From a virus: a stretch of 59,046 nucleotides of DNA. The stretch is taken from IMG/VR virus record IMGVR_UViG_3300030329_000446, positions 1-59,046 of that record. One strand, given 5' to 3'. Under the pieces are notes generated by a model that saw only the letters and a program-made list of their open reading frames with translations, did no database searches and had not been told where the DNA came from. Of the stretch, positions 1-59,046 are shown piece after piece (position 1 is the stretch's first letter; each line of letters begins with the position of its first letter). A program made the position numbers and the translations under genes.

Positions 1-165
1 TTATCCTATATAATACAACAATTAACTAAAAAATTAAAAAGTTTGGATACAAAGTCTACTCCTAAGACTACTCCTAAGACTACTCCTAAAGATGGTGGTT
101 TTAAATCTACTAAGGTTAATGGTACAAAAACACCAATAAAAAAAGCTACACTTAATAAACAACCA
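1..165. repeat. Left copy of terminal direct repeat (genome joint)
   Basis: Bases 1-165 recur at 58894-59046, identical except that this copy holds one extra 12-bp unit (ACTCCTAAGACT) in the TTPK-coding microrepeat. The overlap keeps one reading frame open through the joint. This is how a circular or circularly permuted molecule looks when linearised by assembly. A short physical terminal repeat is the alternative. Confidence 0.9.
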
Positions 166-963
166 GATTCAGGATTTAAATCTACATCAAATCTAAAATC
201 ACCTACACCAAAACCAAAGAAAGTTAGTGGTACTCAACCAAAACCAAAGAAAGTTAGTGGTACTCAACCAAAACCAAAGAAAGTTAGTGGTACTCAACCA
301 AAACCAAAGAAACCTATGTCTCGTACTGAAAAAGTTATAAGATCAACTTTAGGATTAGGTACTACAGCAGGTAGACGTTCAGGACAAGCTATCCGTGATA
401 AAAAAGGAAAAGTTCATGGTGTATCTAAAAGAGATCAAAAACTAGCTAGAAATATACGTAGAGGAGGTGCTGCTGCTGCTGGTCTAGCTGGTATAGGAAC
501 TGCATTATATTATGCTAATAAAGATAAGGAGAAAGATAAAAAGTCTTCTCTAGCTAATGTCACACCTCCTCGTAAACCTAAACGAGGATATAAACCTCCA
601 TTTGAAATGGAAGACCCTACTTTTAGTAAACCTAAACCTCGTGTAGATACTTTTAAGGATATGCCTAAAAAGAAAAAGAAACCTACTAAGACTTCTCAAG
701 AAGCTAAAGAGCGTAAAGATCAAAAGACTGCACAGGGACGCTATCGTTACTATGGTAAACCAGGAGAAACTATAGGTGATCTCTCACGTAAGTTTGAGAT
801 AAAGTATGATACTAAACCTCAAGCAATGTTACCACATGAAGAAGGCTTCCAAGAAAGTAATAAGCGTGGTGGTCAGATTAAAGGCTATAAGAAAGGTGGT
901 AAGGTTTCTCGTCCTCGTGGAGTAGGAGTGGCTCTACGTGGATGGGGTAAAGCTATGAGGTAA
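1..963 (+). CDS. 3' part of joint-spanning Lys/Pro/Thr-rich disordered protein
   Basis: No stop precedes base 1 in this frame, and it continues the open frame that starts at ATG 58414. Once closed the protein is about 480 aa. A TTG at 43 is an internal codon, not the start. The middle is low-complexity and probably disordered: TTPK units, then three perfect KPKKVSGTQP decapeptides. A short Ala/Gly-rich hydrophobic stretch (RGGAAAAGLAGIGTALYY) follows. Near the C-terminus GRYRYYGKPGETIGDLSRKF weakly resembles a LysM unit. The tail carries KRGGQIKGYKKGGK and RPRGVGVALRGWG, motifs shared with the next gene. Function unknown; a basic virion or DNA-associated protein is likely from its late-operon position. 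Confidence 0.75.
   Translation, partial: LSYIIQQLTKKLKSLDTKSTPKTTPKTTPKDGGFKSTKVNGTKTPIKKATLNKQPDSGFKSTSNLKSPTPKPKKVSGTQPKPKKVSGTQPKPKKVSGTQPKPKKPMSRTEKVIRSTLGLGTTAGRRSGQAIRDKKGKVHGVSKRDQKLARNIRRGGAAAAGLAGIGTALYYANKDKEKDKKSSLANVTPPRKPKRGYKPPFEMEDPTFSKPKPRVDTFKDMPKKKKKPTKTSQEAKERKDQKTAQGRYRYYGKPGETIGDLSRKFEIKYDTKPQAMLPHEEGFQESNKRGGQIKGYKKGGKVSRPRGVGVALRGWGKAMR
58..90 (+). repeat. 12-bp coding microrepeat (TTPK units)
   Basis: ACTCCTAAGACT occurs twice in tandem at 58-81, followed by a partial ACTCCTAAA. The right-end copy (58951-58971) has only one full unit plus the partial. The difference is exactly one in-frame unit, so it changes protein length by four residues without a frameshift. Confidence 0.85.
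211..310 (+). repeat. 30-bp coding tandem repeat, three perfect copies plus a partial
   Basis: The 30-bp unit at 211-240 is repeated without a mismatch at 241-270 and 271-300, and its first ten bases recur at 301-310. Each unit encodes KPKKVSGTQP. Perfect identity in third positions indicates recent expansion by slippage or recombination; copy number is likely to vary between relatives. Confidence 0.9.
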
Positions 964-965
964 TT

Positions 966-1469
966 ATGGCTAGAGGAAAACTTTTACAAGCAGGACTAGG
1001 TTTAGGTGCGGGTAGTGCTACTCGTGAAGGAGTTGACCAAGGAGTCATTCCTCAGTCTGCTGTTCATGCTGTAGATGCAGCAGCATTAACGAGTATGGGA
1101 GCACAAGGTCTTAGATGGGCTTATAATAAACTTCCTGAAAGCTATAAAAAGAAAGTTCCTTTTAGAACATTTGCAAAAGCTGCAAGAAAACAAATAAAAG
1201 ATAAATTTACTAGTCCAAAAGCTATAGCTAAAAGAGGAGCAAAGACAGCAGGTTCTTTAGCGGCTGGTCCTTTTGCTCCTCTTATGAGTGTTGGATTTTT
1301 AGGCCATGATATATATGATCTAGGTAAAACATTATATGGTCTAGCAGATCAAAAAATAAGTGGAAAAAAAAGAGGTGGACAGATTAAAAAGACTAAAAGG
1401 AAAGTTCGTGGTAGACCTCGTGGAGTAGGTAAAGCTCTACGTGGTTATGGTGCGGTTTCTAAACGATGA
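966..1469 (+). CDS. Basic Ala/Gly-rich protein with GGQIK and RPRGVG tail
   Basis: 167 aa, ATG two bases after the previous stop. The N-terminal half is Gly/Ala-rich and moderately hydrophobic (LLQAGLGLGAGSAT; AGSLAAGPFAPLMSVGFLGHDIYDLG near 98-123), the rest is Lys/Arg-rich. The C-terminal 30 residues (KKRGGQIKK, then GRPRGVGKALRGYG) match the tail of the upstream gene in order and spacing, so the two tails share an origin although the bodies do not look alike. No enzymatic motif. A minor virion or membrane-active ejection component is possible but unproven. Confidence 0.75.
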   Translation: MARGKLLQAGLGLGAGSATREGVDQGVIPQSAVHAVDAAALTSMGAQGLRWAYNKLPESYKKKVPFRTFAKAARKQIKDKFTSPKAIAKRGAKTAGSLAAGPFAPLMSVGFLGHDIYDLGKTLYGLADQKISGKKRGGQIKKTKRKVRGRPRGVGKALRGYGAVSKR

Positions 1470-2805: not shown

Positions 2806-3480
2806 ATGGCACTCTCAGGTACATATACATTTGACTTAGATATTGATGCTGTTATTCAGGAGGCTACTGAGATGATTGGTGGTGGGGAAATCCTGGGACA
2901 TGAACCTGCATCGGCACGTAGGTCACTTAATTTACTACTAGCAGACTGGCAGAATCAAGGGATACTTCTATGGTCTACAGATGTAAGTACTATTACTGTA
3001 GCCGTAAGTACAACTACGTATGACCTGAGTAGTGCTACTATTGATGTTATGGAAGCTGTCCTTAATAGGGATAATACTGACCTACAGATGACCCGTATAT
3101 CTTTTGAGGAATATCTCAAGATACCAACTAAAGGTCAAACAGGAAGACCTTCTCAATATACTGTTAAACGTAACCAAGATTATCCTACTCTTTATGTATG
3201 GCCTTTACCTGAAAATGCGACAGATGTTATTAAAGTAGAACGTATAGGATTTCTTCAAGATATAAATAAATCTGCTGGTCAAAATGCGGATATACCTCGT
3301 AGATTTTTACCATGTTTAACAACTGGATTAGCTTACTATATGTCAATGAAGAGGCCAGGAGTTGATGCTACTCGTATTGCAATGTTAAAAACAGTTTATG
3401 GAGAACAATTTAAAAATGCTATGGAAGAGGATAAGGAAAGAGCAAGTTTGTATTTTAAACCTAAGTTAGGTTATGTATAA
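2806..3480 (+). CDS. Head-to-tail adaptor / tail accessory factor, P22 gp4-like
   Basis: 224 aa. P22 gp4 and relatives bind under the portal ring and close the DNA-filled head. Features of the family: N-terminal helices with ARRSLNLLLADWQNQGILLW, a beta domain, the VWPLPENATDVIKVERI strand pair, and a C-terminal helical segment (FLPCLTTGLAYYMSMKRPG, then LKTVYGEQFKNAMEEDKER). Length fits the family. It lies directly before the fibre genes. Confidence 0.75.
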   Translation: MALSGTYTFDLDIDAVIQEATEMIGGGEILGHEPASARRSLNLLLADWQNQGILLWSTDVSTITVAVSTTTYDLSSATIDVMEAVLNRDNTDLQMTRISFEEYLKIPTKGQTGRPSQYTVKRNQDYPTLYVWPLPENATDVIKVERIGFLQDINKSAGQNADIPRRFLPCLTTGLAYYMSMKRPGVDATRIAMLKTVYGEQFKNAMEEDKERASLYFKPKLGYV

Positions 3481-15068: not shown

Positions 15069-15286
15069 TGGATATGAATGAATTTTATAAATTTTTAAAT
15101 GAAAGTACTTATATTAATAATGTAAATACTGGACAGGCTATGGTTCCTAATATGTTCCAGGGTCAACAATCATTTCAACCAATGAAATCAGGTGGAAAGA
15201 TAGATACAAATGTTTATGCTAATAGTACCAAAGCACAGTCTAATTATATGAATCCTCAGAAGTTAAAGGATAAGTCATGGCAATGA
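15068..15286 (+). CDS. 72-aa hypothetical protein with GGKI motif
   Basis: TAATG start. Asn/Gln/Met-rich and probably disordered, with MKSGGKIDTNVYANSTKAQ in the middle, one instance of the Gly-Gly-x-Ile/Val motif repeated across this genome. The stop overlaps the next gene by 10 bp. No known family. Confidence 0.6.
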   Translation: MDMNEFYKFLNESTYINNVNTGQAMVPNMFQGQQSFQPMKSGGKIDTNVYANSTKAQSNYMNPQKLKDKSWQ

Positions 15287-15933
15287 TGAAGATGCCTCCG
15301 CTAGGGAGAATAGGACAAACAATGGGGCGTATGGGTCGTATGGGAGATACAACTCTGGTACATATGAATCCCCAAGAAATTCAAGGATTAGCTACACTTG
15401 GTAGACTAACCTATAATCCTATTACTGGTTTACCTGAAGCCTTTAACTTTAGTGAAGTAATTGAAGAAGCAGTAGAAGAAAAAGAAACAGACAGAGGTAA
15501 GCAATATTTTGTAGACTTGGTAGAAAAAATACATGAAACATTTGTTGATCCTAAACCTACAGGAATTGCAGGAGCAGTACCTCCTAGTATGCCTATACCT
15601 CAACAACCTCCAGTACCAATGCCACAACCACCTATGCCTATGCCTCAACCTCCTATGCCTCAAGGAATGGCTGGTGGTGGATATGTTGAAGGTGAAGGAC
15701 ATGGTATGGAGGACAATCAGATGTTTCCTATTCATGGAGGAGGATTAGCTGCATTATCTCCTAAAGAATATGTAGTTCCTGCTGATGTAATGGCTGGACT
15801 AGGTAATGGTAATCCTGACGATGGTGCGGAAAAGATGGATGATTTTATTTCTGACTTCCGTAAAGAAAAATATGGCAGAGATAAACAACCACCTGAGATG
15901 GATGGGAGACAACAATTAGAGAAACTTGCTTAA
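15277..15933 (+). CDS. Structural protein with Pro/Met repeats and EYVVPADV motif
   Basis: 218 aa. Residues about 100-130 are PQPPMPMPQ-type repeats. It then carries GGGYVEGEGHGMEDNQMFPIHGGG, followed by LSPKEYVVPADVMAGLGNGNPDDGAEKMDDF. This last motif (E-[FY]-V-[VI]-P-A-D-V ... LGNG) is common in marine phage virion-associated proteins. Role unknown; clustering with ejection-protein genes suggests a tail or internal component. Confidence 0.7.
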   Translation: MAMMKMPPLGRIGQTMGRMGRMGDTTLVHMNPQEIQGLATLGRLTYNPITGLPEAFNFSEVIEEAVEEKETDRGKQYFVDLVEKIHETFVDPKPTGIAGAVPPSMPIPQQPPVPMPQPPMPMPQPPMPQGMAGGGYVEGEGHGMEDNQMFPIHGGGLAALSPKEYVVPADVMAGLGNGNPDDGAEKMDDFISDFRKEKYGRDKQPPEMDGRQQLEKLA

Positions 15934-16412: not shown

Positions 16413-18278
16413 ATGTGTTTTGGTGGTGGTAGAAGTAAGCCTCAAGTTGTCTCAACAGGAACTCAACAGATAACTGACAAGAGTTGGGAGACACTAGAGC
16501 CATATATAAAGAATGTTCTAGAATCATCTAGGTCACGCTTTGAGGATCAACTAGCTGAAGGCTATCAGGCATTTCCTGGTGGATATGAGGGACGCTATGA
16601 AGGTCCATCAACAGAAGAACTAGCAGCTAGAGAGGGTATCCTTCAACAGGGATTATCTGGCATAGCTGGTACTGGTATGTCTTCTGCTCGTCCCTATTAT
16701 GAGTCAGGACTATCAGCCCTTACATCTTCTATGGATCAGTTTGGCCCACAACAAGCACAGCAGTACATGAATCCCTATCAACAGGCTGTGGTTGATGTAG
16801 CTAAACGTGAAGCAGTAAGACAGGCACAACCTACCTTTAGGGGTATTGGAGATCGTGCTGAAGCTGTAGGAGCTTTCGGTGGTAGTAGACAGGCAATAGC
16901 AGAAGCAGAAGCTAATCGTAATCTCCAACAGCAACTAGGTGATATTCAGACACGAGGGATGCAGTCAGCCTTTGAACAGGGACGCTCTGCTTTTGAGGCA
17001 CAGAAAGCTAGGGAAGCTGCTGGTGCTCAACGTATGTTTGCTCAAGCTCCTCAAGCATGGCAACAGGGATTACGTGAGTTAGGAGCAGTAGAAGAAGTAG
17101 GTAGGGCTAGACGAGGAGATGAACAGGCTAAGAAAGATTTTCTCTACGAACAGTTTGAGGCAGAGAAAGTATTTCCATCACAGGTATATGGTGAACATCT
17201 AGGTCATGTACGTGGGTTTCCTTATCAACCATCTATGTATAAGACTACTACTAATATGCAGCCTCGCCCTAGTATGGGAAGACAGTTACTAGGTGCTGGT
17301 ATGGGTCTTGCTAGTATGGGTAAGAATTTAGGTTTCTTTCAAAGTGGTGGACAAATTCAGGGTGGTCTTAGTGGTCTTGTTCAACGACACCAGAATAATG
17401 CTGCTATAGACTATGATAGTTTAGATGAATACCAACAACAATTATATGATATTGGTGGTTCTCCTTATATGGCTACTGAAACTGAAACACAGACAGTAAG
17501 AGAGCAACCTGCTACACCTAAACCTACTATTCCTACAAGAAGTGGTACAGATTATGATGCAATGTATCTGGCAAATTTAGATAAAGCAGGTAGTTTATAT
17601 GATGTATTAAGAGAAAAAGTTGAAAAAAGAAATGCTCCTGCTTATAAAGAAAAAAGAAAAGCTGAACTTGCTCAAGCAAGAAAAGATGCAGCATGGGATC
17701 AAGTGGGTAGGATAGGTGCAGCTATAATGGCTGCTCCTGGACATATGGATATGTTACAGTCAGCAGGACACGCCTTAAAAGAAACAGGAGCTATAGATAA
17801 ATTAGGTGAAGCGAGAAAAGAAGAAAGAAAAGGTATTAGAGAATTAGAAGATCAAGACTTAAAAACTACTAAAGAGTTAGCTGCACTTGATCTCAATACT
17901 TTAAAAATAGAAAATGAAATTATAAAAGCTGCTCAAGCTGGTGACTTAAAGAAAGCAGAACTCTTATCTAAGAGGTTTGAAAGTCAATTAAAATATGCTA
18001 ACTTTGAATTAAATAAAGCTAAATATAATAATGATATAGCTAAACTTTTAGCATCTGATCAACTGACTGCTGTGTTAGGTAGTGGAGATAAGAAACGTAT
18101 AAGAGCAATTCTTGAGCAAAATGTAGGAAAGTATGGATTATCTTCTCAAGATGTTGAAAAGATTATGAGTGAAGCAGATGAACATATTGCTTCTGCTAGA
18201 GCACTATTACCTTCTCTTCAAAGAGGAGGAACTGCTACAGGTGGAGTAGACTCTTTAGATGAACATGAGTGGAAATAA
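16413..18278 (+). CDS. Internal virion / ejection protein candidate (MCFGGG start)
   Basis: 621 aa. Opens MCFGGGRSKPQVVSTGTQQ. Gln/Ala-rich helices fill the first 250 residues (FGGSRQAIAEAEANRNLQQQ), FFQSGGQIQGGLSGLVQRH at about 310 carries the Gly-Gly motif, and the C-terminal third is a long charged coiled coil (AELAQARKDAAWDQVG; LKIENEIIKAAQAGDLKKAE). The plan and position before a 1250-aa protein match small core/ejection proteins of T7-like phages, but no domain is firmly identifiable. Confidence 0.7.
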   Translation: MCFGGGRSKPQVVSTGTQQITDKSWETLEPYIKNVLESSRSRFEDQLAEGYQAFPGGYEGRYEGPSTEELAAREGILQQGLSGIAGTGMSSARPYYESGLSALTSSMDQFGPQQAQQYMNPYQQAVVDVAKREAVRQAQPTFRGIGDRAEAVGAFGGSRQAIAEAEANRNLQQQLGDIQTRGMQSAFEQGRSAFEAQKAREAAGAQRMFAQAPQAWQQGLRELGAVEEVGRARRGDEQAKKDFLYEQFEAEKVFPSQVYGEHLGHVRGFPYQPSMYKTTTNMQPRPSMGRQLLGAGMGLASMGKNLGFFQSGGQIQGGLSGLVQRHQNNAAIDYDSLDEYQQQLYDIGGSPYMATETETQTVREQPATPKPTIPTRSGTDYDAMYLANLDKAGSLYDVLREKVEKRNAPAYKEKRKAELAQARKDAAWDQVGRIGAAIMAAPGHMDMLQSAGHALKETGAIDKLGEARKEERKGIRELEDQDLKTTKELAALDLNTLKIENEIIKAAQAGDLKKAELLSKRFESQLKYANFELNKAKYNNDIAKLLASDQLTAVLGSGDKKRIRAILEQNVGKYGLSSQDVEKIMSEADEHIASARALLPSLQRGGTATGGVDSLDEHEWK

Positions 18279-22046: not shown

Positions 22047-23594
22047 ATGTGTTTCGGTGATGGTAATAAAAAACTTCAGGCTACGATTGATATTGATACA
22101 TCAAGTCTGGGAGGTTTAACAGATATATTAAATAAACAACCTACCGATGAAGAGGTAGCAGCAGAAGAAACTGTAGAGGCTACAGAAGAAACTACTGCAC
22201 CTAATCTTCTGAATCAACCTGTGCTTGACAAACTAGAAAAGATGTCAGAGAATTTACCTGAAAGAACTACAGGTGAAACTATGAGAGCTATGATGCCAGC
22301 TATACAGCATAGTGATCAGATGATGCATCATATGAATAGAGATCAGATGCGTATGTTAGAAAGAATTATGCAGCGTACAGGACGTAGACCTTTTAATCCT
22401 AGACATCCAAGAGGCGGTTCCTTTGGTAAAGGAGGAGGTCATAGTGATCCTAGAGTACCTAGACCTAGATATCAAACTTTAGGAGCTAATCCACAAGTAG
22501 CAGGACTAGCAGGATTGTTTGGTAGACCTCACCAACACGCAGGAATTAGAGGTAAAGGGATTAATCCAGAACAAATAATGGCTACTCCTACACAATTACC
22601 TAACTTTCCCAAACAACAAATGGCTACACCTATGCAACCAGAAGTAGTAGAGGAACAACAACAGATGGAGATACTAGGTCAACCTAAACAGTTTGCTGGT
22701 GGTGGTCTTGTTAATGCTCTGATGGCTACACCTGTGGGACAGGCTGCAATAAAACAATATGCAGAGGGTGGTGATATAAAATTTGGTGATTATGTTTTTG
22801 ATTATAAATTAACTGACGATGATCCACTAGATATACTACGAGGCAGGATATATGATGATGGAAGAAAAGCTAGGTTCTTTTCTTCTGAGGCTCATATGAA
22901 AGACCCTTCTGAACCTGTAGTGAAGTGGAGAAAACCAGATGTTGTAAAAGAGATTACAGAAGACCTTAAACCTGTACGTAGGAAGAAAAAGAAAGGGGAA
23001 CCCCATGAAGGTGATAGTCAAGTTCCTGGGGGTGCTCCATCGGACAGAACAGCAGCAAATAACTGGGGATATATAGGTCATAAAGGACGAGGACTTATGA
23101 GTGTATTAGGTGCAGCAACTGGTCTACCATTAGGACTTCTAGGAGCACTTAATGATTATCAGGCTATGAATATGGGACGTACTGGGTGGAGTACCCAATT
23201 TAGTCCTAGTTTCTGGGATACATTAACTATGGGTCTTTTTGATAGTAGTGGTATGTATGATAAGACTGTAGAAAATATGGAAAATAGAAATATTGCTGGT
23301 CGTGAAGGATTACTTGGTGATCCTAACTCACCGTTAGGTCAAGCTAAACTTATGGATTATACTCATAAGTATGGTACTGAAGAACCTATAACTGAACAGG
23401 AAGAAAAAGACTATAGAGACTTAGTAGGCCAAGTAGAGGCTTTAGACCCTAGTGATTGGGACGTAGATGAGGCGGGAGAAGAAGGTCCAAGTGATCCTAG
23501 TGGAGGGGATATGGGGCATGGTATGGATAACAGTGCTCAAGACAGTACCCCAAGTGATGAGGCTGAAGAAACTGGTTCAGAATCAGCATGGTAA
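22047..23594 (+). CDS. Third internal/tail protein candidate (MCFGDG start)
   Basis: 515 aa, RBS AGGAGATTAG. It opens MCFGDGNKKLQ, echoing the MCFGGG start of the 621-aa protein two genes upstream. Met/Gln/Pro-rich and probably disordered in the middle (MATPTQLPNFPKQQMATPMQP). FAGGGLVNALMATP and YAEGGDIKFGDYVF carry the Gly-Gly motif. The C-terminus is very acidic with Asp/Glu/Ser/Gly. Role unknown; position suggests a virion component. Confidence 0.65.
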   Translation: MCFGDGNKKLQATIDIDTSSLGGLTDILNKQPTDEEVAAEETVEATEETTAPNLLNQPVLDKLEKMSENLPERTTGETMRAMMPAIQHSDQMMHHMNRDQMRMLERIMQRTGRRPFNPRHPRGGSFGKGGGHSDPRVPRPRYQTLGANPQVAGLAGLFGRPHQHAGIRGKGINPEQIMATPTQLPNFPKQQMATPMQPEVVEEQQQMEILGQPKQFAGGGLVNALMATPVGQAAIKQYAEGGDIKFGDYVFDYKLTDDDPLDILRGRIYDDGRKARFFSSEAHMKDPSEPVVKWRKPDVVKEITEDLKPVRRKKKKGEPHEGDSQVPGGAPSDRTAANNWGYIGHKGRGLMSVLGAATGLPLGLLGALNDYQAMNMGRTGWSTQFSPSFWDTLTMGLFDSSGMYDKTVENMENRNIAGREGLLGDPNSPLGQAKLMDYTHKYGTEEPITEQEEKDYRDLVGQVEALDPSDWDVDEAGEEGPSDPSGGDMGHGMDNSAQDSTPSDEAEETGSESAW

Positions 23595-23618: not shown

Positions 23619-23999
23619 ATGGATTGGCAGTACTTTACTGAAGAAGAGATGGCCTGTAAGGGTACAGGTGAATGTGAGATGGAACCAGAGTTTATGGATA
23701 AGTTAATAGCTATCCGTGAACAAATAGGAAAGCCTATGATTATTACATCTGGTTACAGACATCTAGCTCATAACTCCACTATTGGAGGAGCAAAGAACTC
23801 ACCACATCTCTACGGTAGGGCAGTAGATGTAAAGGTAGCAGGTGGAGATGCTTTAGAATTGATAGAGGTAGCACTTCACTATGGTATGACAGGGATTGGT
23901 GTAAAGCAGAGAGGGCCACATGACAGCAGGTTTATACATATTGATGATATGCCTAACTCCGATGACCATCCTAGACCTTGGATATGGAGTTATAAATAA
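23619..23999 (+). CDS. Endolysin: M15-type zinc D-Ala-D-Ala carboxypeptidase
   Basis: 126 aa, RBS TTAGGAGGATAATTT. The single domain is Peptidase M15 (type 3). Zinc ligands in the expected order are His63 and Asp70 (SPHLYGRAVDV) and His107 (FIHIDDM), with SGYR at 44-47. It would cleave peptide cross-links of peptidoglycan at lysis. No signal sequence, so export would need the holin (25314-25724). The TAATG joint couples it to the Fe-S gene behind it. Confidence 0.9.
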   Translation: MDWQYFTEEEMACKGTGECEMEPEFMDKLIAIREQIGKPMIITSGYRHLAHNSTIGGAKNSPHLYGRAVDVKVAGGDALELIEVALHYGMTGIGVKQRGPHDSRFIHIDDMPNSDDHPRPWIWSYK

Positions 24000-24265
24000 T
24001 GACAATGTTTGCTAAGATAGAAGATGTCTTAGCAGATAAGATAGCACCCTATATGATAATGCATGGAGGTACTATAAAGTTATTAGACTATGATGAAGAT
24101 GTAAAGAATGTTCATGTGGAATTAGGAGGAGCTTGTGCTGGTTGTGCATCCTCTACCATCACATTAAAATTAGGAGTGGAAAATATGTTGAAGCATGAGT
24201 TTCCAGAAGATATAAAAACTGTAACTCATGTGGAGACAGAAGTAACTAACCCCTTCTATGTATAG
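23999..24265 (+). CDS. NifU C-terminal-like Fe-S scaffold/carrier
   Basis: 88 aa, one Nfu/NifU C-terminal domain: MHGGTIKLLDYDED, then ELGGACAGCASSTITLKLGVE with the CxxC pair Cys46/Cys49 that bridges a [4Fe-4S] cluster between two subunits in this family. Such carriers hand clusters to apo-proteins. Last rightward late gene; it ends 2 bp from the stop of the convergent gene. An A-type carrier lies 660 bp away on the other strand, and an Fe-S nuclease is encoded at 32695-33555. Confidence 0.88.
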   Translation: MTMFAKIEDVLADKIAPYMIMHGGTIKLLDYDEDVKNVHVELGGACAGCASSTITLKLGVENMLKHEFPEDIKTVTHVETEVTNPFYV

Positions 24266-24540: not shown

Positions 24541-24938
24541 TTACAAGTCTTCATTAGCTTCTTCATTTCTTCTTTACCAATGACCTTCATAGCAGATTGA
24601 ATATCAGATACAATCTTATCTACATTAAGAATGTCATCGTCACTTGTCTTATTCCCACGTACTCGTGATAGAATTTCTAATGCCTTAATAGCACTGTTAG
24701 TATGTCCATGTCCTTTAGCATAGCTATACTGGTTTTCTAATTCTTCAATAACATTTACATCTGTAGTCATTTCCTGTTCTGCATCATAGATACGTTGTTG
24801 TATCTCTTCTTCTTGCAGTAACCTATGTCCCTGATTACGTGCAGAGCGTTCACTATAACCAGCTAATCGTGCAGCCTCAGATGCATTACGACTAAGAATA
24901 TAATGCTGTACAAAAGCCTCTTGTTTTTCATTTAGCAT
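24528..24938 (-). CDS. Terminase small subunit candidate (Terminase_2-like)
   Basis: 136 aa. The N-terminus (LNEKQEAFVQHYILSRNASEAARLAGYSERSARNQGHRLLQ) is the classical Terminase_2 helix-turn-helix: 'LT.kQ..Fv..Yl...nat.AA..AGYs...a...g..LL'. It would bind the packaging site and load the large subunit. Unusually it lies on the opposite strand and about 22 kb from the large subunit gene at 47290, in a leftward transcript otherwise holding holin and Fe-S genes. A host-type DNA-binding role is the alternative. Confidence 0.75.
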   Translation of the reverse strand: MLNEKQEAFVQHYILSRNASEAARLAGYSERSARNQGHRLLQEEEIQQRIYDAEQEMTTDVNVIEELENQYSYAKGHGHTNSAIKALEILSRVRGNKTSDDDILNVDKIVSDIQSAMKVIGKEEMKKLMKTCKWEQ

Positions 24939-25317
24939 TTACAGTTAAGTCCATATCTGTTGGATCATAAGGGCCAGATGTAAAGACTATATCTTTAGGA
25001 TGGAAGCTCTCCCCACACCCACACATAGATTGGACATTAGGATTTTCTATAAATAATCTTTGTCCAAAAATATCTTTCTTGTAGTCTACTTCCATACCAG
25101 CAAGGTACATAACGGATGTACCATCTACTACAAGTTTACCTACATCCAGGTCTAATTCCAAGTCTGTTACTTTGGTTTGCAGTTTCTCCAATGGTTGCCA
25201 ATCATAATTGAAACCAGAGCAGCCTCCTCCCTTTACTGCTAAGAGGATACCTTCAAGGTTATTCTCAGCAATAATAGAGGAGAGGTGTATATCTGCTGCT
25301 TCAGTTATGTTTATCAT
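24928..25317 (-). CDS. A-type Fe-S cluster carrier (IscA/ErpA/HesB family)
   Basis: 129 aa. The family signature is complete: GGGCSGFNY with Cys33 and CGCGESF with Cys99 and Cys101, the three cluster-binding cysteines. Length is usual for ErpA/IscA. Such proteins pass [2Fe-2S] or [4Fe-4S] clusters to targets. Overlaps the holin gene by 4 bp and the terminase-like gene by 11 bp. HesB-like genes are known auxiliary genes in marine phages; with the Nfu-type gene this phage has two separate Fe-S delivery proteins. Confidence 0.9.
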   Translation of the reverse strand: MINITEAADIHLSSIIAENNLEGILLAVKGGGCSGFNYDWQPLEKLQTKVTDLELDLDVGKLVVDGTSVMYLAGMEVDYKKDIFGQRLFIENPNVQSMCGCGESFHPKDIVFTSGPYDPTDMDLTVNAK

Positions 25318-25724: not shown

Positions 25725-25954
25725 TATATCTTAGCCTGTATTAGTTGATTAGGATCATCATCTTCTTGAGGATAGTGATCTTCTATGGTGCGTATCTTCT
25801 CGTCATTCTCTGCAATAATAGCTATTTGTTTATCTACTTCCTGAACAATATCAGAGTGTTCTCCTATTCCTACTGAATGATTAAGGTACACTTCTATATT
25901 AGCTTTCGCTATAGCTATCTCTCCTTGGTATTTAGATATTAAGGCATCTAACAT
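25724..25954 (-). CDS. Small acidic helical protein next to holin
   Basis: 76 aa: helical N-terminal half (ISKYQGEIAIAKANIEVYLN), an acidic second half (EDHYPQEDDDPNQ). No membrane helix. The stop shares a base with the holin start, and its start is within the end of the glycosyltransferase fusion gene (7-bp overlap), so co-translation with the holin is likely. Possible holin regulator; that is inference only. Confidence 0.65.
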   Translation of the reverse strand: MLDALISKYQGEIAIAKANIEVYLNHSVGIGEHSDIVQEVDKQIAIIAENDEKIRTIEDHYPQEDDDPNQLIQAKI

Positions 25955-28233
25955 GGTAGGAACTCCTTATAATGTTTAGTCTTACTTATACGTGAATTAT
26001 TCCACAAGGTCTTTACGAGGGTATTCTCTCCATGAACAGTGATCTCCATATCTACATCGTCACGTTCAAAGAGTTTCTCACAGTCCTGTGCCATAGCAAG
26101 TAGCTCACCTGTAGTCCAGAACTTATGATCATCTACGGTAACATTCATATACTTAGGTCTACCATCTCTCTCTTTCTTTTTCTTATCTTTATCTGATGGC
26201 TCTGGTATAATACAGTCATAACCAAACAAGTCAAAGGTTCTAAATCCCAGGATGTGCATCATTCCTATAGCTCTCATAGCCGCACACGTTCCTCCTGTAA
26301 TGAAGGTAGTGTCTGGTGGTATATCAAACTCTTCAGAAACTTGTATTGTATTATCTCTCACAGGTTTATTCTTATCTGTAGCTGCACGTAAAGTCTCTGA
26401 AAAAGCATGCCATCCCCACAGATTAGCTCCCTGTTTCTTGAGAAGCCTTGTTACTGAAGGATTGGTCATAGATGCAAGAAAGAATATAGTATCTTTATCT
26501 ACCTTATTAAATAAAGTCTTACGGATAATACCATGTGTAGACTTACCGCTTAGTGGTCTTGGGTCTAGTATAACACATCCCCACGGTTGTATGCCATGTT
26601 TTAAAAGATGGGGGTATGAATGTTTCACACAGACCACACGAGTATGATCTTTCCGACTAAGTTCTTTTACATGGTTCCAGTCTGTGCTATCTCCACCTGA
26701 TACAATGATAACTCTATCCGAATGTGCTCTGCCTTTCTCTAACCAGTTGTCCATAAGTTTAATATTCTTTTTAATATTACTTACAAGGTTCTGATCAGGT
26801 ACACAGTCTTTAGGAGTGACATGAATAGGAACTTGCATAACCTTATTCGTTAAGTCAGGCAGGTTATCATCAATCAGGACTACAGCTAAGTGAGTATGTC
26901 CTCCTTCTCGTACTCCATCACTGGATGGTAACACCTGTTTACGGTGGGTAACTTCTTCTATAATTCTATTTACTTCTCTAAACTCTTCATCGACACAGTT
27001 ACCCTGTGCATCTGCTGTAAAGAAGTCATCAAAAACCAGAATAGGAATATGCTTTAACTTGTCATAGTCATTACGTACTGTTTTGGTACTATGTCCACCA
27101 TCAATATAAGCTAAGTCTGCTTCGATACCAGCTTCTAAAGTTTCGTTAGTGTCTCCTTTTGTTAGGGTAAAGGTGAAGGTCTTATTCCTTTCTTCCTTCA
27201 TCTTCTTTTTAAACTTGTTTAAATGTTCTGTTATTTCATCTATTGAAACAATCCTCTTAGCATTAAGTTCTTTAATACTAAGTTCTTCGTTACCTTCCTC
27301 AAATAAATCATAACCAATATATTCAAAGTCGTCCCTATTTTCAAAGGAAGCTAGGGCCATTTCAATCGCACGTTGTCCTATCCATGTCCCTGTCTCTACT
27401 ACTTTAGCTGGTTGATACTGTCGTATAATATCAGCAAGTTGTTTATATCTTTGTGCTGGTGGAATAGGTTTACTTTCTACTGTACCTTTACGATCTCCTT
27501 TAAGATGTTCCATAAACTCACTAAGAGGGAAGGACTCAAAGGCTTGCTTACCTTTTACAAGGTCTGTTATATCTAAGTGACCAGTGAAGTCTTGTACTCT
27601 CATGCCATGAGCACGATAGATAGTCAGTAGTCTTTCAAAGATAAAACCATCATGCCACTCACGATAGTTGACTACTTCACCAGAGTTGTAGGCTCCACGT
27701 AGATCACCTAGTAAATCTAAAGCTCCACGATATTTAAGATTAAATGCCATGAAGGATGTTTCACTGTAGTCAAAATGCTTCCTTCCCAAGAAAGCTAACT
27801 CTGCTTTAGGATTAAGAAAGTTATCTAAGTCTTTGGAAGTAAAGTCTTTCTTAGTAAATGTATCAGCATCTAACCAGATACACCAGCCTGGATCACGACT
27901 GTCATCAGATAATTCAAATGCAAACTCTGTAAGAGCAAAGACTTTATGACAGAATTTTACTGCGTCTAACCTAAAGTTATATTGTAACTGTCCTCCCTCC
28001 GTACCATTATGTTTCTGGAATGTCTCTCTGAAAGCTGTCATTTCTGTGAGAAGGTTAAGATTACGATACTCTATATGATTAGGACGAGGTACATCATGCT
28101 TGTCTATATCAAAGTCATGGTAGTAGACAGTAAGTTTGAGTGGCTCTTTCCAGTGTCGGGCAGCAGTCTCCAGCATTTTCATGCCATAAAGTTTTAATCC
28201 TTCTTCATTCATAGAGGTAACAAAGTTATACAT
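25948..28233 (-). CDS. Glycosyltransferase - methyltransferase - DUF115-like fusion
   Basis: 761 aa with three parts. About 1-245: nucleotide-sugar glycosyltransferase-like, with the metal-binding DxD in WCIWLDADTFTKKDF. About 270-460: class I SAM methyltransferase-like (VVETGTWIGQRAIEMAL, then LAYIDGGHSTKTVRNDY and ILVFDDFF). About 480-745: DUF115-like domain (RVIIVSGGDSTDWNHV, TFITGGTCAAMRAIGMMHILGFRTFDLFGYDC), a fold found in flagellin/LPS glycosylation proteins. Together with the next gene (8-bp overlap) it could modify a surface glycan or virion protein. Substrates are unknown; codon use matches the neighbours. Confidence 0.8.
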   Translation of the reverse strand: MYNFVTSMNEEGLKLYGMKMLETAARHWKEPLKLTVYYHDFDIDKHDVPRPNHIEYRNLNLLTEMTAFRETFQKHNGTEGGQLQYNFRLDAVKFCHKVFALTEFAFELSDDSRDPGWCIWLDADTFTKKDFTSKDLDNFLNPKAELAFLGRKHFDYSETSFMAFNLKYRGALDLLGDLRGAYNSGEVVNYREWHDGFIFERLLTIYRAHGMRVQDFTGHLDITDLVKGKQAFESFPLSEFMEHLKGDRKGTVESKPIPPAQRYKQLADIIRQYQPAKVVETGTWIGQRAIEMALASFENRDDFEYIGYDLFEEGNEELSIKELNAKRIVSIDEITEHLNKFKKKMKEERNKTFTFTLTKGDTNETLEAGIEADLAYIDGGHSTKTVRNDYDKLKHIPILVFDDFFTADAQGNCVDEEFREVNRIIEEVTHRKQVLPSSDGVREGGHTHLAVVLIDDNLPDLTNKVMQVPIHVTPKDCVPDQNLVSNIKKNIKLMDNWLEKGRAHSDRVIIVSGGDSTDWNHVKELSRKDHTRVVCVKHSYPHLLKHGIQPWGCVILDPRPLSGKSTHGIIRKTLFNKVDKDTIFFLASMTNPSVTRLLKKQGANLWGWHAFSETLRAATDKNKPVRDNTIQVSEEFDIPPDTTFITGGTCAAMRAIGMMHILGFRTFDLFGYDCIIPEPSDKDKKKKERDGRPKYMNVTVDDHKFWTTGELLAMAQDCEKLFERDDVDMEITVHGENTLVKTLWNNSRISKTKHYKEFLPC

Positions 28234-29020
28234 TAGATAGTCCTTCTTCTATTATTATCTTATCTTTCAGTTCATTCCATTCTGTAGCATACTTTATATC
28301 TACATCACGAGAAGCTGACCAGTTCTCGAACCAAGGTCCACCTGTAGTAAAGTGTACATTCTTAGGCTCTAGAGTTTCAGATGAATGATGGTCTAACCAG
28401 TTCCACTCCTCTTCAATTTTTCCCATAGGAAATTGTGTCATCCTTCCATGCTCCCAACCATCTAACCACTTAAAGTTATGAAGCCAATAACCAGACTTAG
28501 TATTAACATCATCTACAGTAAGATTAAGATTAGCTTTATGTCCACAATTCCAAAGCATAAAGCTAGACCAATTTTTTCTGGAGTAAGCCTCTTGTATTTG
28601 ATTGTCCATCTTAGTTTCATTATTAGGTTGATATTTATGCCACACACAAGATACCGCATGAACATCATTAGAGTATCTATGAAATACTTCCATGATGTCT
28701 GAACGTACCATCATATCACAATCCATAAAGATTGCGTAACCATCGTATTGATTAAGGTGGGGGATTAAGAACCTAGTAAAGCTGAAATCAGTAGAAAAGG
28801 GTTTACCATCAGAGAGATCAACCTTTTGTTTCTTGTTATCAGGACTGATAGACCATGCTCTACGGTATAATCCAGCAGCCCTTAGTGCGTGTTGATCTAG
28901 TTTTATAATGTTTAAGTCTTTAACTGAGGATGTTAATTCAATAGACTTAACTAAAGTTTCAAATGCCAGATGTTCTCTTTCATCGTAGCCAATATAAATT
29001 GTTGGTTGTCTCTGATACAT
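28226..29020 (-). CDS. Glycosyltransferase, GT8-like
   Basis: 264 aa. IYIGYDEREHLAFETLVKSI is the first Rossmann element and DGYAIFMDCDMMV (about 93-105) carries the DxD motif that holds Mn-nucleotide-sugar. YRRAWSI, FSFTRFLIPHL and the late GPWFENW with basic and aromatic residues fit GT8/GT-A transferases. Cytosolic, no membrane segment. It immediately precedes the glycosyltransferase-methyltransferase fusion, so both probably act on one glycan. Confidence 0.82.
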   Translation of the reverse strand: MYQRQPTIYIGYDEREHLAFETLVKSIELTSSVKDLNIIKLDQHALRAAGLYRRAWSISPDNKKQKVDLSDGKPFSTDFSFTRFLIPHLNQYDGYAIFMDCDMMVRSDIMEVFHRYSNDVHAVSCVWHKYQPNNETKMDNQIQEAYSRKNWSSFMLWNCGHKANLNLTVDDVNTKSGYWLHNFKWLDGWEHGRMTQFPMGKIEEEWNWLDHHSSETLEPKNVHFTTGGPWFENWSASRDVDIKYATEWNELKDKIIIEEGLSNV

Positions 29021-29470: not shown

Positions 29471-29914
29471 TTAAAACCTCCCTATAAATCTTGCGATATG
29501 ATTGACCCATGGCAGTAACATTAATGCCATTAATAGATTAGCTCCTGTATGAGCTATAGCTATTCTTAATGTGTCTCCTTTAGGAAACCCATCAGATACA
29601 AATAATCCTGCCAACCAGATAGTACCTGTAGTCCCTATATTAGCCCCTAGAACAGCAGCTATAGCACTAGGTAAGGGTAAGAACCCACTGGCTACTAAGG
29701 CTATGATAGCTGTAGTACTTAAAGAACTGGATTGCCATGCTAATGTACATACAATCCCACCTAAGAACATCCAGTATGGGTTAGTAATAAACCACTCTAG
29801 ATGTTCCACATTTCCTAAAGACTTCATACCTCCAGCAAACATTTTCAGACCAAAGTAAAATACAACCAGCCCTATACCTATCTGTACTATAGGCATATCC
29901 CAATATTTAATCAT
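29471..29914 (-). CDS. Half-size Na+/phosphate cotransporter (NptA-like), auxiliary metabolic gene
   Basis: 147 aa, start at ATG 29914 in a TAATG joint (an in-frame ATG at 29929 lacks an RBS). Contains the Na/Pi-cotransporter signature QSSSLSTTA (Gln61-Ser64) followed by VLGANIGTTGT (90-96), and about four membrane helices (8-24, 46-60, 66-105 region, 117-142). Cellular NptA proteins carry two such QSSS repeats and are at least twice as long, so this is one repeat; it could act as a dimer. It would raise phosphate uptake in the infected cell, useful for DNA synthesis in phosphate-poor water. It lies just behind the RNR operon. Confidence 0.82.
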   Translation of the reverse strand: MIKYWDMPIVQIGIGLVVFYFGLKMFAGGMKSLGNVEHLEWFITNPYWMFLGGIVCTLAWQSSSLSTTAIIALVASGFLPLPSAIAAVLGANIGTTGTIWLAGLFVSDGFPKGDTLRIAIAHTGANLLMALMLLPWVNHIARFIGRF

Positions 29915-30087
29915 TAATGTTTTCTCCATGAGTTTTTAAATTCTAACTCATCTACTATTTCTTGTAAGACTTGAGCAGCCGTATTAAACCTACCTCCATC
30001 GTGATCCATACGCTCATACTTTTCCTTTATTAATTGTATCTCTGTCTTTAAGACTTCTATTCTTTCATCTAGACTACGATATACCAT
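29914..30087 (-). CDS. 57-aa helical protein between RNR and transporter
   Basis: ATG 30087 shares a base with the RNR stop (TAATG). The sequence is mostly one charged amphipathic helix (SLDERIEVLKTEIQLIKEKYERM; VLQEIVDELEFK), probably coiled-coil forming. No family recognised. Its tight coupling implies co-expression with the reductase. Confidence 0.6.
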   Translation of the reverse strand: MVYRSLDERIEVLKTEIQLIKEKYERMDHDGGRFNTAAQVLQEIVDELEFKNSWRKH

Positions 30088-48890: not shown

Positions 48891-49964
48891 ATGGCAGGTT
48901 TATCTACAGTATTAAAGATGGTAAATATGGCTATAGAGGCTGGAGGAAAAGCAGCACCTAAAGTTATGTCTGTAGATAATAAAGGACTTAAAAATTTATT
49001 ACAGTCTGATGATAAAATAGAGGAGTTTCAAAAAGTATGGAAGTCTTCCCCTGAAAATAAATTTGATCAAAGACAGATACAAGACGTGGATGTTAGAGAA
49101 GCTGTAGAACAATTTGACAAGGGTGAACTTACAGGAAAGAAATTAAGAAATATTATTAAAGAAAAGTTACCGATGGAAATGATAAATAGTGTTCAAAAAA
49201 TTCCTAGCTTTTCAGATATGATTGGAGCCTTAAATAAAAGTCAAGTTAAGGCTGGTATTGTAGGATTAAATAAAAGTCTAAAGGGACAACGAGTAGCAAC
49301 AAGATTAGATATACCAGCATATAATCGCCATGATAAATGGATTGTAAGTATACATGATGGTATGAAGGGTAAAGCTATTGGTTATGGAAAAACTGCAAGA
49401 CTTAAAAATGTAGAGTTTGGAAGTCAACCTAGAATAGCAATGGATATTGCACAAGAAAAATTAAAGCCAGATTCTAAAAAAATGAAACAAGCGAAAGAAG
49501 AATTTTTTCTTACAAATAAAAGAAAACCTAATACAGATGAAATTAAACAAATGAGAGCCGACCCATCTAATATGAGTAAGACAGATAAATCTACTATTGC
49601 AAGAATGGAAGGAGACTGGACAGAAACTCCTGATAGTGATACCATCTCTTTTGCAGAAAATTTATTTAAACGACAGAAGGATGGAAAGTTTTTTGATGAA
49701 GCAGGTGAAGAATGGATACAGGTAGGAATGAACCCGTATAGAGGAAGTAATTTTTATGATAAAGCTACAGGCCAAGCCCTACAAGTAGCCGATGAAGTAA
49801 TACAAGTTGGTCCTCTTGTATTTGCAAAAGGAGCACGTAAACCTACTTTATCTGAGTATAAGAAGAATTTTACATTTAAAGATACCCAAGGAAAAACAAA
49901 AGTATTTAATAGGGGTGGTATAGTAGCACGTAATCCCTACCCTGAAGCGAGAGGAATATATTAA
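48891..49964 (+). CDS. 357-aa phage structural protein candidate
   Basis: RBS GTGGAGGATATTAT. No known domain. Basic, alpha/beta: MAGLSTVLKMVNMAIEAGGKAAPKV at the start, KWIVSIHDGMKGKAIGYGKTARLKNVEFG in the middle, and GEEWIQVGMNPYRGSNFYDKATGQAL. The last 20 residues (FNRGGIVARNPYPEARGIY) carry the Gly-Gly-Ile motif found in many other virion genes here. Lies between terminase and portal, joined to portal by TAATG. Confidence 0.7.
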   Translation: MAGLSTVLKMVNMAIEAGGKAAPKVMSVDNKGLKNLLQSDDKIEEFQKVWKSSPENKFDQRQIQDVDVREAVEQFDKGELTGKKLRNIIKEKLPMEMINSVQKIPSFSDMIGALNKSQVKAGIVGLNKSLKGQRVATRLDIPAYNRHDKWIVSIHDGMKGKAIGYGKTARLKNVEFGSQPRIAMDIAQEKLKPDSKKMKQAKEEFFLTNKRKPNTDEIKQMRADPSNMSKTDKSTIARMEGDWTETPDSDTISFAENLFKRQKDGKFFDEAGEEWIQVGMNPYRGSNFYDKATGQALQVADEVIQVGPLVFAKGARKPTLSEYKKNFTFKDTQGKTKVFNRGGIVARNPYPEARGIY

Positions 49965-53529: not shown

Positions 53530-54528
53530 ATGGCAGAAGAAAGAGAAATTGAAGTAGAAGAACAGGATGATGGTGGATGGAATCAGATTACTATCCCTGA
53601 ACATGAGGAATTACAAGTAGAAGTAGAGGAAGAAGTTCAGGCTGTTCAAGAAGAAAAAGAAACACCAGAACCTAATCCTCCTCCTTTAAAACCTGATGAA
53701 CCTGAATTAGATGGAATTCAAACTCAGGGAGCAGAAAAAAGAATTCGTAAATTAATTCGTCAACGTAAAGAACGTGATGAAGAAATTGAAAAGTTAATGA
53801 GGCATAATAGTGAGCTTCAGTCTAAACTAAGTAATAAAGAAACAGAAGTTGCTACAAATGTTAAACAGAATATTGAACTAAGTTCCAAACAGGTTGATGA
53901 TAAAATTGAATTAGCTAGGACTGCATATCTTAATGCCTTTGATGGTGGAGATAAGGAACAGCTTCTTTCGGCACAGGAAATTTTAAATCAGGCTCAGTTT
54001 GAAAAACAACGGATTGAAGATGCTAGGACTGCTCTTGATCAATATGAGACAGCACAAGAGAACCAACAGACGGTTCAGGAGCAGCAACAAGAATTTAAAC
54101 CTGATCCTAAAGCTATGAGGTGGGCATCTGAAAATGACTGGTTTGGTCAGGATCAGATAATGACTTACGGAGCTTTAGAGATTGATAAACAATTAAAAGA
54201 AGAGGGATATGATCCCTCAGAAGATGAGTTCTATGTAGAAGTGAATAGGAGACTTCAGGAGACTTTTCCTAATAAATTTACAGGAGAACCTGAAGTACAG
54301 AATTCACAACCCCGTCAGCAGGAAACGTCACCTGCTCAAGTGGTCGCTGGTACATCACGCTCACCTAGCACTGCCAGTAACCGTAAGGTTAAGCTAAGTC
54401 CAGAAGACATTCGACTGGCTAATAAATGGCAGATACCACTTGAAGTATATGCGGCAGAGAAGCTAAAAGTTGATAAAGCTGAAGGCGAATATACTAATGT
54501 TGTAACTAATAAGCGTGGAGGACAATAA
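53530..54528 (+). CDS. Scaffolding protein candidate
   Basis: 332 aa from ATG 53530 (RBS CGGAGAATATT; an in-frame TTG at 53488 is rejected). Strongly acidic N-terminus (REIEVEEQDDGGWNQ; VEVEEEVQAVQEEKE), a long charged coiled coil (EKRIRKLIRQRKERDEEIEKLMRHNSELQSK), a Gln-rich middle and a basic C-terminal helix. Composition, length and position before the capsid gene fit a phage scaffold; homology is not detectable by eye. Confidence 0.72.
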   Translation: MAEEREIEVEEQDDGGWNQITIPEHEELQVEVEEEVQAVQEEKETPEPNPPPLKPDEPELDGIQTQGAEKRIRKLIRQRKERDEEIEKLMRHNSELQSKLSNKETEVATNVKQNIELSSKQVDDKIELARTAYLNAFDGGDKEQLLSAQEILNQAQFEKQRIEDARTALDQYETAQENQQTVQEQQQEFKPDPKAMRWASENDWFGQDQIMTYGALEIDKQLKEEGYDPSEDEFYVEVNRRLQETFPNKFTGEPEVQNSQPRQQETSPAQVVAGTSRSPSTASNRKVKLSPEDIRLANKWQIPLEVYAAEKLKVDKAEGEYTNVVTNKRGGQ

Positions 54529-56993: not shown

Positions 56994-57653
56994 ATGCCTG
57001 ATTATGATTATTTAATCACGGATGTAAAAAATACGGCAGAAAATGATGGGACAGAATTTGCAGCACAATTACCCAAGATTGTAAATAAAGCAGAAAATAA
57101 ACTTACGACTGATCTAGACGATCATGGCTTAACCGTATATACATCTATAGCGATTACATCAGGAAAGGCTGTTGTTACAATTCCTAGTGGTACTCGTATC
57201 GTTAGGAATTTTTCCATGACTCAAAACGGGTCACGGAAGAATATGCTATTGCGTACAATGGAATTTGTTAATGACTTCTGGCCTGTTAGTGCCAGTACCA
57301 GTGCTCCAATCTATTATGCTTATAGAGGTAATACAGAGATAAGAGTTGCTCCCACTCCAGCATCTACCCATAACGGTGAGATTATGACAGTGGTTAGACC
57401 AACCACTCTTACCTCTACAGGTACAACTTCAAATTACTTTACGGATTTTTGTTACGATGCTTTATTTACTGCCTGTATGGTAGAAGCATCTTTATTTATG
57501 AAAGACTCTACAGCTTCTCAATTATGGGAGAGTCAATATCAATATCATATTAATGCACTACGTAATCAGGCACGTAGAACGAGACAGGATGATATGGCTG
57601 TTAATGCCAGCCCTGCTGGTGGACCTGATACTCTTATTAAAGGTTCAAGTTAA
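56994..57653 (+). CDS. Head-tail adaptor-like protein
   Basis: 219 aa. Helical N-terminus (LITDVKNTAENDGTEFAAQLPKIVNKAENKLTTDLDDHGLTVYTSI), beta core (YYAYRGNTEIRVAPTPASTHNGEIMTVVRPTTLTSTGTTSNYFTDFCYDALFTACMVEAS) and a C-terminal helix (LWESQYQYHINALRNQARRTRQDDM). The layout matches podovirus adaptor/gp4-like proteins that sit beneath the portal; a second one is at 2806-3480. Confidence 0.72.
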   Translation: MPDYDYLITDVKNTAENDGTEFAAQLPKIVNKAENKLTTDLDDHGLTVYTSIAITSGKAVVTIPSGTRIVRNFSMTQNGSRKNMLLRTMEFVNDFWPVSASTSAPIYYAYRGNTEIRVAPTPASTHNGEIMTVVRPTTLTSTGTTSNYFTDFCYDALFTACMVEASLFMKDSTASQLWESQYQYHINALRNQARRTRQDDMAVNASPAGGPDTLIKGSS

Positions 57654-58081: not shown

Positions 58082-58402
58082 ATGGCTAAAATGTCACATA
58101 TAGGTTTATATCCTGCTGAAGAAGCTCGTTCTGGTACGATGTCTGAAATGGAACGTGCCAAACATATGAAGAAGGGTGGTCAGGTTAAAAAGAAAAAGAA
58201 AAAACAGGGCTACAAAGATCGTAAGGATGAGTCTATTGCAATGCGTGTAAAGAAGAAGCGCACTAAGAAGCAGTTAAAGGCTAGTCGTGATGAGTCCTAC
58301 GGTAAGTGGGGTAGCGCAGCTAAGAAGCGTGGTAAGATTAATCGTTCCTCCAGTAAGGGATGGGATGGTAATCGTGAAGTCTCACGCCACTATGATTCGT
58401 AA
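58082..58402 (+). CDS. 106-aa very basic protein with KKGGQVKKKKKK
   Basis: Start 58082 follows the previous stop by one base with GAGGGGAATTAA ahead. MAKMSHIGLYPAEEARSGTMSEMERAKHM, then KKGGQVKKKKKKQGYKDRKDESIAMRVKKKRTKKQLKASRDESYGKW. Over one-third Lys/Arg. Carries the Gly-Gly-x-Val motif. Probably a DNA-condensing or RNA-binding virion component. Confidence 0.72.
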   Translation: MAKMSHIGLYPAEEARSGTMSEMERAKHMKKGGQVKKKKKKQGYKDRKDESIAMRVKKKRTKKQLKASRDESYGKWGSAAKKRGKINRSSSKGWDGNREVSRHYDS

Positions 58403-58413
58403 GGAGAAGAAAG

Positions 58414-59046
58414 ATGGCTATGAGTAAAGCAGAATCACGTAAATTAGTTTCAGAAGCATTAAGAGAGTTTGAAGAAAAAGGTGGAAAAATAGAAAAGGTT
58501 AGACCAGGAAGAGCAAAAGGTTTAAAACCTCAAGTAACTGAGCCAGGACGTAGAGGATCACCAGGAGTACGAGTAAGTTTACGGGGTGGAAATGTAATTA
58601 GTATTGATGGTCCTCCATTAACTGATACAGAAAAAAAACAACGAAAAAATAAAACTAAAACTCCTACTCCTAAACCTCCGACTACTACTACTAAACCTAC
58701 GAATACATCAAAGAAAACTAAAATTACTGGTCACTCTAAGACTCCAGGTAGATTTGTTGATAGAAAAACAGGTAAAGATGTTACTCAACCAATACCAAAG
58801 AAAGGTAGTAGTACTATACGTAAAGAAGCAAATAAAAATAAACCAAAATCTCGTGTAAAACCTATTAAAAAAATTCCAAGTAAAACACAAGGTTTATCCT
58901 ATATAATACAACAATTAACTAAAAAATTAAAAAGTTTGGATACAAAGTCTACTCCTAAGACTACTCCTAAAGATGGTGGTTTTAAATCTACTAAGGTTAA
59001 TGGTACAAAAACACCAATAAAAAAAGCTACACTTAATAAACAACCA
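58414..59046 (+). CDS. 5' part of joint-spanning Lys/Pro/Thr-rich protein
   Basis: ATG 58414, RBS AAGGAGAAGAAAG. The frame stays open to the last base and is in phase with the frame that ends at 963, so this is the N-terminal half of that protein. Residues 1-50 (MAMSKAESRKLVSEALREFEEKGGKIEKVRPG) look folded, with one GGKIEK motif; a later segment is Pro/Thr/Lys-rich (KTKTPTPKPPTTTTKPTNTSKKTKI). Its copy of the TTPK repeat is one unit shorter than at the left end. Confidence 0.78.
   Translation, partial: MAMSKAESRKLVSEALREFEEKGGKIEKVRPGRAKGLKPQVTEPGRRGSPGVRVSLRGGNVISIDGPPLTDTEKKQRKNKTKTPTPKPPTTTTKPTNTSKKTKITGHSKTPGRFVDRKTGKDVTQPIPKKGSSTIRKEANKNKPKSRVKPIKKIPSKTQGLSYIIQQLTKKLKSLDTKSTPKTTPKDGGFKSTKVNGTKTPIKKATLNKQP
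58894..59046. repeat. Right copy of terminal direct repeat
   Basis: Matches 1-165 with a single 12-bp in-frame deletion in the TTPK microrepeat. Counting the duplicated part once gives a circle of about 58.89 kb with this copy, or 12 bp more with the other. Confidence 0.9.

Follow-up and report, generated by a model that had tools for sequence, protein, structure and literature searches.

Podovirus ejection proteins, such as those of the P22, T7 and PhiM1 types, are late products that travel in the head and pass into the cell. Encapsulins, host compartments with an HK97-fold shell, load unrelated cargo by means of short flexible C-terminal peptides that bind the inner face of the shell. In bacteriophage T4, the internal proteins IPI, IPII and IPIII are basic and divergent and share a targeting peptide, the capsid targeting sequence (CTS), with which they enter the core; this peptide is N-terminal, comprises 10–19 residues and is cut by the protease gp21 (PMC9026906).

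Here we describe a short C-terminal tail on late proteins of marine podoviruses. Like the T4 CTS, it is a short terminal peptide common to unrelated proteins of the head module (29 body clusters in an adaptor slot), and its carriers are small, basic and poorly conserved, with bodies that vary between close relatives. Since the T4 peptide is N-terminal and this tag is C-terminal, the tag is not a member of the CTS family; it is also unrelated to it in sequence, no protease was recognised here, and the phages are podovirus-like with another capsid protein family. The tag shares with the encapsulin peptides its short, flexible, C-terminal nature on unrelated proteins, but it is Arg/Gly-rich, different in sequence and located in a viral structural operon. 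The phage also encodes a protein that resembles a DNA ejection protein (gene 16413), from which the tagged proteins differ in being small, hypervariable and basic and in lying apart from the ejection gene block at 15–22 kb.

The window, that is, the whole stretch analysed, is a virus record of 59,046 bases with an overlap of about 150 bases between its ends: positions 58894–59046 repeat the sequence from position 1 (to about 165). One copy is 12 bases longer than the other, owing to a short tandem repeat with a 12-base unit (TPKT units). Because of this overlap, gene 58414 runs on into position 1 and encodes a single 480-aa protein, termed the joint protein (Table 1). The gene also contains three 30-base repeats at 207–312 (KPKKVSGTQP) and is intact in another contig, L001 (487 aa, 98% identical). 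Open reading frames (ORFs) were called mechanically throughout. Rightward genes encode the terminase, portal (phrog_1216), GroES (Cpn10), capsid protein (phrog_371, Mu gpT-like), an SU10-type adaptor (PF24175), tail proteins and the DNA-ejection-like protein; ribonucleotide reductase and ThyX are among the leftward gene products. By capsid protein (48–55% identity), the nearest named phages are DSL-LC04, 023Pt_psg01, the pelagiphages HTVC023P and HTVC027P, MinM2 and its relatives, and the roseophages CRP-901/902; the right third of the window has no DNA-level match among named phages. The tag occurs in a large, uncultured group of short-tailed marine podoviruses that are relatives of pelagiphage HTVC023P.

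Several other genes of the window deserve mention. The GroES-like co-chaperonin gene (53026–53445, +) lies directly 5′ of the putative scaffold and capsid genes and is kept across the lineage as well as in HTVC023P, HTVC027P, CRP-901 and DSL-LC04. A NifU-like gene (23999–24265, +; E = 3e-23) is found close to an Fe-S biosynthesis gene of the IscA/HesB type (24928–25317, −; E = 3e-16). The 152-aa product of 29471–29929 (−) matches a Na+/Pi-cotransporter domain (E = 7e-17) and is possibly a phosphate-uptake accessory protein. A 761-aa protein (25948–28233, −) combines an MptE-like domain (E = 1e-14) with a methyltransferase domain; the glycosyltransferase-like gene beside it (28226–29020) was assigned by eye, without a Pfam hit.

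Table 1. Gly-Gly motifs, tagged genes and bordering adaptor genes in the window.
Feature	Position	Strand	Basis or remark
Joint gene, 5′ part (residues 1–211)	58414..59046	+	coding continues at position 1
KGGKIEK, N-terminal in joint protein	58477–58497	+	sequence
Joint gene, 3′ part (body of first tagged protein)	1..963	+	480 aa in all, pI 11.2
Joint protein, C-terminal tag KRGGQIKGYKKGGKVSRPRGVGVALRGWGKAMR	859..960	+	two GGx[IV] units and RGxGxAxRG core; sequence, profile in 30-tail alignment A1
Second tagged protein (966), 167 aa, pI 11.5	966..1469	+	sequence
966 protein, C-terminal tag KKRGGQIKKTKRKVRGRPRGVGKALRGYGAVSKR	1365..1466	+	sequence
48891 protein, C-terminal tail NRGGIVARNPYPEARGIY	49908..49961	+	second ending type, GGx[IV].RNPY..(x)PRAI
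KKGGQVK in basic 106-aa 58082 protein, not C-terminal	58169..58189	+	YGGKVKK at this site in G009 homologue
KSGGKID in 72-aa 15068 protein, 30 residues from end	15185..15205	+	sequence
NKRGGQ, C-terminus of acidic putative scaffold 53488 (pI 4.2)	54508..54525	+	phrog_28737, function unknown
GGGYVEG in 15277, then ...LSPKEYVVPADV	15673..15693	+	internal motif
QSGGQIQG inside 16413 (DNA-ejection-protein-like)	17340..17363	+	internal, patchily conserved; phrog_4287, E = 1.2e-7
FAGGGLV and AEGGDIK inside 22047	22692..22781	+	internal, patchily conserved
SU10-type adaptor, left border of tagged-gene slot in relatives	56994..57653	+	PF24175, E = 1.5e-20
Putative second adaptor, right border of tagged-gene slot	2806..3480	+	phrog_12985, function unknown

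The original prediction held that a GGx[IV] motif of one kind recurs in at least nine unrelated late proteins and had not been seen in early enzymes. All motif strings it listed are found in the window, in eight proteins rather than nine, since the contig ends split a single gene into 58414 and the remainder of the joint protein, which had been counted twice. Late proteins of the window (n = 41) contain 25 GGx[IV] motifs compared with 10.8 ± 3.4 in within-protein shuffles, a number reached by two of 1000 shuffles (0.2%); early proteins (n = 45) contain two, compared with 3.7. The stricter form [KRSQ]GG[KQ][IV], picked after viewing the data, occurs seven times versus 0.21 in shuffles. Because GGx[IV] had been read off the window, it was tested on ten near-complete independent relatives, with "late" defined as the same strand as the capsid gene. 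The excess over composition-matched shuffles was again confined to late proteins (177 vs. 110 ± 10, reached by none of 200 shuffles; early proteins, 29 vs. 24 ± 5). The stricter form is weak in these relatives (7 vs. 2.6 ± 1.5, shuffle maximum 9) and is therefore not to be over-read. Mere glycine richness is rejected as the source of the excess: plain GG is not significantly enriched (104 vs. 95), and the spacing control GGxx[IV] is flat in the ten relatives (102 vs. 109).

The listed motifs are not all one element. The tails of the joint, 966 and 48891 proteins are C-terminal tags conserved as such. For 58082 and 15068, the homologues of some relatives have a GG motif at the corresponding site (for 15068, the aligned site is MGGQVNI in G009, and the homologues in G010 and G001 have no motif). 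The internal, patchily conserved motifs of 15277, 16413 and 22047 do not represent the C-terminal tag. The 48891 gene sits between terminase and portal; its type of ending is also carried by proteins of L131, L153, L172, L181, L186, L188 and L200, some with bodies homologous to 48891.

The RPRGVGxALRG[WY]G tail noted at the C-terminus of two adjacent proteins was confirmed in the joint and 966 proteins (910–960 and 1413–1466), where each copy reaches its stop codon. AlphaFold models of both proteins are of low confidence (mean pLDDT 51 and 50) and offer no clue to function, and the 966 tail has no predicted secondary structure in its low-confidence model. RPRGVGxALRG is the clearest version of a more general form, K..GGx[IV]...(R/K)GxGxAx(R/K)Gx. 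A degenerate DNA pattern for PxGVGxAxxG retrieved at least 119 stretches from a viral contig collection. Among the matches listed (111 viral contigs), the RPRGVG-type pattern lies 25 residues or fewer from the C-terminus in 147 of 152 ORFs, and the five non-terminal cases look like chance matches. Also among the matches listed, 106 contigs have a C-terminal tag, with one tagged gene in 70, two in 31 and three in five, and 128 distinct tagged proteins fall into the 29 BLAST body clusters. Each genome has one to three adjacent tagged genes, with the tag 15–25 residues from the stop codon, and at least 29 bodies unrelated in sequence carry it. When 30 tails are aligned (A1), the consensus is K.GG.V....KPRGVG.ALRGYGKAMK, in which G-G, G, A and G are invariant.

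The same position emerges from a sample chosen blind to the tag, the best 80 loci by capsid protein. In these loci, GGx[IVLM] is most frequent 15–30 residues before the C-terminal end (118 motifs; shuffled, 26 ± 5), with a density of 7.3 per 1000 aa at the peak and 1.1–2.3 beyond 30 residues. In 38 ORFs from 29 loci, the final 40 residues contain the core RGxGxAx(R/K)G (43 kaa of tails), compared with two occurrences in 185 kaa outside tails and none on the opposite strand. In the ten near-complete relatives, 22 of the 453 late-strand ORFs are tagged, compared with none of the 370 early-strand ORFs. The reversed core has no match in 15 records, where the forward core has 24, several of them from the 57889 family. 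When bacterial and archaeal genomes were scanned for the tag, only two MAG contigs were retrieved, one of which (28,021 bases) resembles the contig behind L089. Searching the tail peptides against named phages by tblastn returned nothing useful, the K/G-rich tails probably having been filtered, and a PDB profile search with the tag gave chance-level hits only and no solved structure carrying it.

Other recurrent sequences were noticed in the same region. The small conserved 57889 protein (57889–58080), whose family was found in 35 of 104 tagged contigs, has an internal (R/K)PTGQG(F/Y)GAA(R/K)KGPxV that resembles the GxGxAxR core and is not C-terminal. The ending ...GGxVVxxSYD or GGTLLVASxYD recurs on different basic proteins (L131, L138, L141, L144, L148, L156 and others), mostly on the first gene after the SU10-type adaptor, and ...(H/P)NRLY ends small basic proteins of the tagged-gene region (L137, L164, L165, L168, L169, L170 and L171). 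In the 80 capsid-chosen loci, the SYD-type, RNPYxYxPRAI and (H/P)NRLY endings are all preceded by a GGx[IV] lead.

Tagged genes have a fixed place in the genome. In contigs that hold both borders, 43 of 43 lie between the SU10-type adaptor and the homologue of the 2806 adaptor, and late-gene markers of the window are present in 100 of 104 tagged contigs. Body exchange was assessed in 111 locus pairs with capsid proteins at least 84% identical and tags in both loci; species in the loci overlap, so that pair counts are not independent events. Among 165 tagged proteins compared, 54 have a full and eight a partial body homologue in the partner; the 103 without one are an upper estimate because some loci are short fragments whose missing homologues may be off the contig. 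Flanking genes in these pairs are mostly 75–100% identical. L129, for example, is 95% identical to the window in the capsid protein and 96% in the 2806 adaptor, and it matches the joint and 966 proteins in the tail alone (for 966, residues 134–165). The joint protein body was likewise not found in L130 and mostly not in L002, where again the match is confined to the tail. Basic proteins beside the capsid genes thus change fast, and the same short C-terminal tail survives complete replacement of the body.

Such exchange would also be expected if the tag were, as the original prediction had allowed, a mobile coding cassette, its DNA providing homologous 3′ ends for recombination between bodies and its peptide doing little. 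Tag pairs within a contig do share more codons at synonymous-choice sites than codon usage predicts (185 of 362 vs. 130 ± 9; window pair, 7 of 9 vs. 3.2). However, only one of nine codons matches in several other contigs in which the peptide is intact, and sharing between contigs is close to expectation (0.37 vs. 0.30). Few shared codons with an intact peptide indicate that selection acts on the peptide and that the amino acids are the part that is kept, which makes the recombination explanation very improbable; a mere recent DNA duplication is rejected by the same low codon match. The cassette claim survives to the extent that tags are copied at times from one neighbouring gene to another and, over longer times, persist as peptides.

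Tagged bodies are strongly basic, Lys-rich and partly disordered. Their median pI (type A) is 10.95, whereas that of untagged proteins on the same strand is 4.65 (net charge, p = 2e-17). The capsid protein (pI 4.6), portal (4.4) and putative scaffold of the window are acidic; the last is called putative because it was assigned from position. The main rival to an address function is that the tail is a flexible Lys/Arg/Gly element that binds nucleic acid by charge, condensing or coating DNA or binding RNA, in the infected cell or in the head, without a specific protein partner. Non-specific binding of this kind could account for the charge of tag and bodies alike, and the RG-rich composition is compatible with AT-hook or RGG types; no Pfam DNA-binding tail was reported in 35 tagged proteins. 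Charge would fix neither the RGxGxAxRG spacing, the invariant A and G positions in A1 nor the distance from the stop codon, and on these grounds we consider this explanation unlikely.

Domain content is sparse. A scan of 35 tagged proteins found LysM in three (best E = 1e-14) and recognised no catalytic Pfam domain, including lysis domains; in a second set, two of 24 have LysM. Some bodies have hydrophobic segments. A DxxGDGx[VI] (Ca-loop) motif is present in 21 of 126 tagged proteins versus eight of 1127 ORFs, the tagged set including mutual relatives. The LysM domains would fit an envelope or lysis role as well, and together with the adjoining adaptor genes they might suggest that the tail anchors proteins outside the head or neck as decoration, displaying LysM and similar domains to the host envelope. 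Most bodies, however, are basic, partly disordered and devoid of a recognisable surface domain, and no decoration-protein homology was found in the tagged proteins scanned, so that we regard decoration as improbable. We give as little credence to a tail that, late in infection, routes proteins to a host target, be it membrane, cell wall, nucleoid or a chaperone, and so serves lysis or control of the host instead of assembly. LysM, the hydrophobic segments and the phage-encoded GroES of the same module speak for such targeting; against it, the scanned proteins lack a recognised lysis domain and the tagged genes keep to an adaptor slot within a single capsid lineage.

We propose instead, with a probability of roughly one half, that the shared tail is a C-terminal address signal that loads hypervariable accessory proteins into the virion. 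The sorting or assembly tag of the original prediction is its best-supported part, as the tag is C-terminal, restricted to late structural genes, attached to unrelated bodies and more lasting than they are. One to three genes with quickly replaced bodies lie between the head–tail adaptor genes, and each body ends in a flexible basic tail consisting of one or more K..GGx[IV] units followed by (R/K)GxGxAx(R/K)G(Y/F/W)G near the stop codon. By analogy with the T4 capsid targeting sequence, we infer that the tail would bind a conserved, probably acidic, part of the assembling head, such as the putative scaffold, the inner capsid surface or the portal region. Any carrier of the tail would then end up inside the particle, to be delivered or to act at entry.

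The T4 precedent, in which targeting propeptides are cleaved (PMC9026906), and the Gly-Gly positions raise the further question of whether the tail is itself a propeptide or, as the original prediction also allowed, a protease-recognition signal that is cut off as the head matures. Scanning of the capsid-module genes with Pfam and PHROGs recognised no prohead protease, and cleavage at the GG would throw away the most conserved part, which lies downstream of it; we therefore consider removal of the tail highly improbable. More tentatively, the address signal proposed here may be one word of a general C-terminal loading code of this abundant lineage, in which RGxGxAxRG, GGxVVxxSYD, GGx[IV]xRNPYxxxPRAI and HNRLY would each direct rapidly exchanged accessory proteins to a separate, defined place in the particle. 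Cargo for entry or for use against the host could then be swapped with the capsid unchanged.

A similar tail exists in an isolated phage. HTVC023P, whose capsid protein is 53% identical to that of the window, was isolated on Pelagibacter HTCC1062, and its 245-aa gp32 (QGZ17661.1) has the C-terminus ...DGIRGVGAAIRGHKFIGVK (ending IRGVGAAIRGHKFIGVK) with the same core as the tag. Different from the tagged genes described above, gp32 lies directly after the putative portal gene and lacks the PRGVG/YGKA flanks; it was recognised by reading tails, the first regular expression having failed to match it. Literature searches found no phage paper for the motif strings and no description of the tag, and neither the HTVC023P-group paper (C-termini, proteomics) nor the CRP-901 paper (C-termini, mass spectrometry) mentions these subjects.

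Should the tail prove to be an address label, it would mark cargo among the many unknown late proteins of common ocean phages, so that the tail by itself would suffice to collect such accessory proteins. It would also extend the idea of capsid-targeting peptides, known from T4, to C-terminal signals and to an unrelated podovirus lineage. Since HTVC023P is an isolated relative with a known host, the question is open to experiment, and the tail would offer a short peptide whose ability to bring proteins into a phage shell can be examined.
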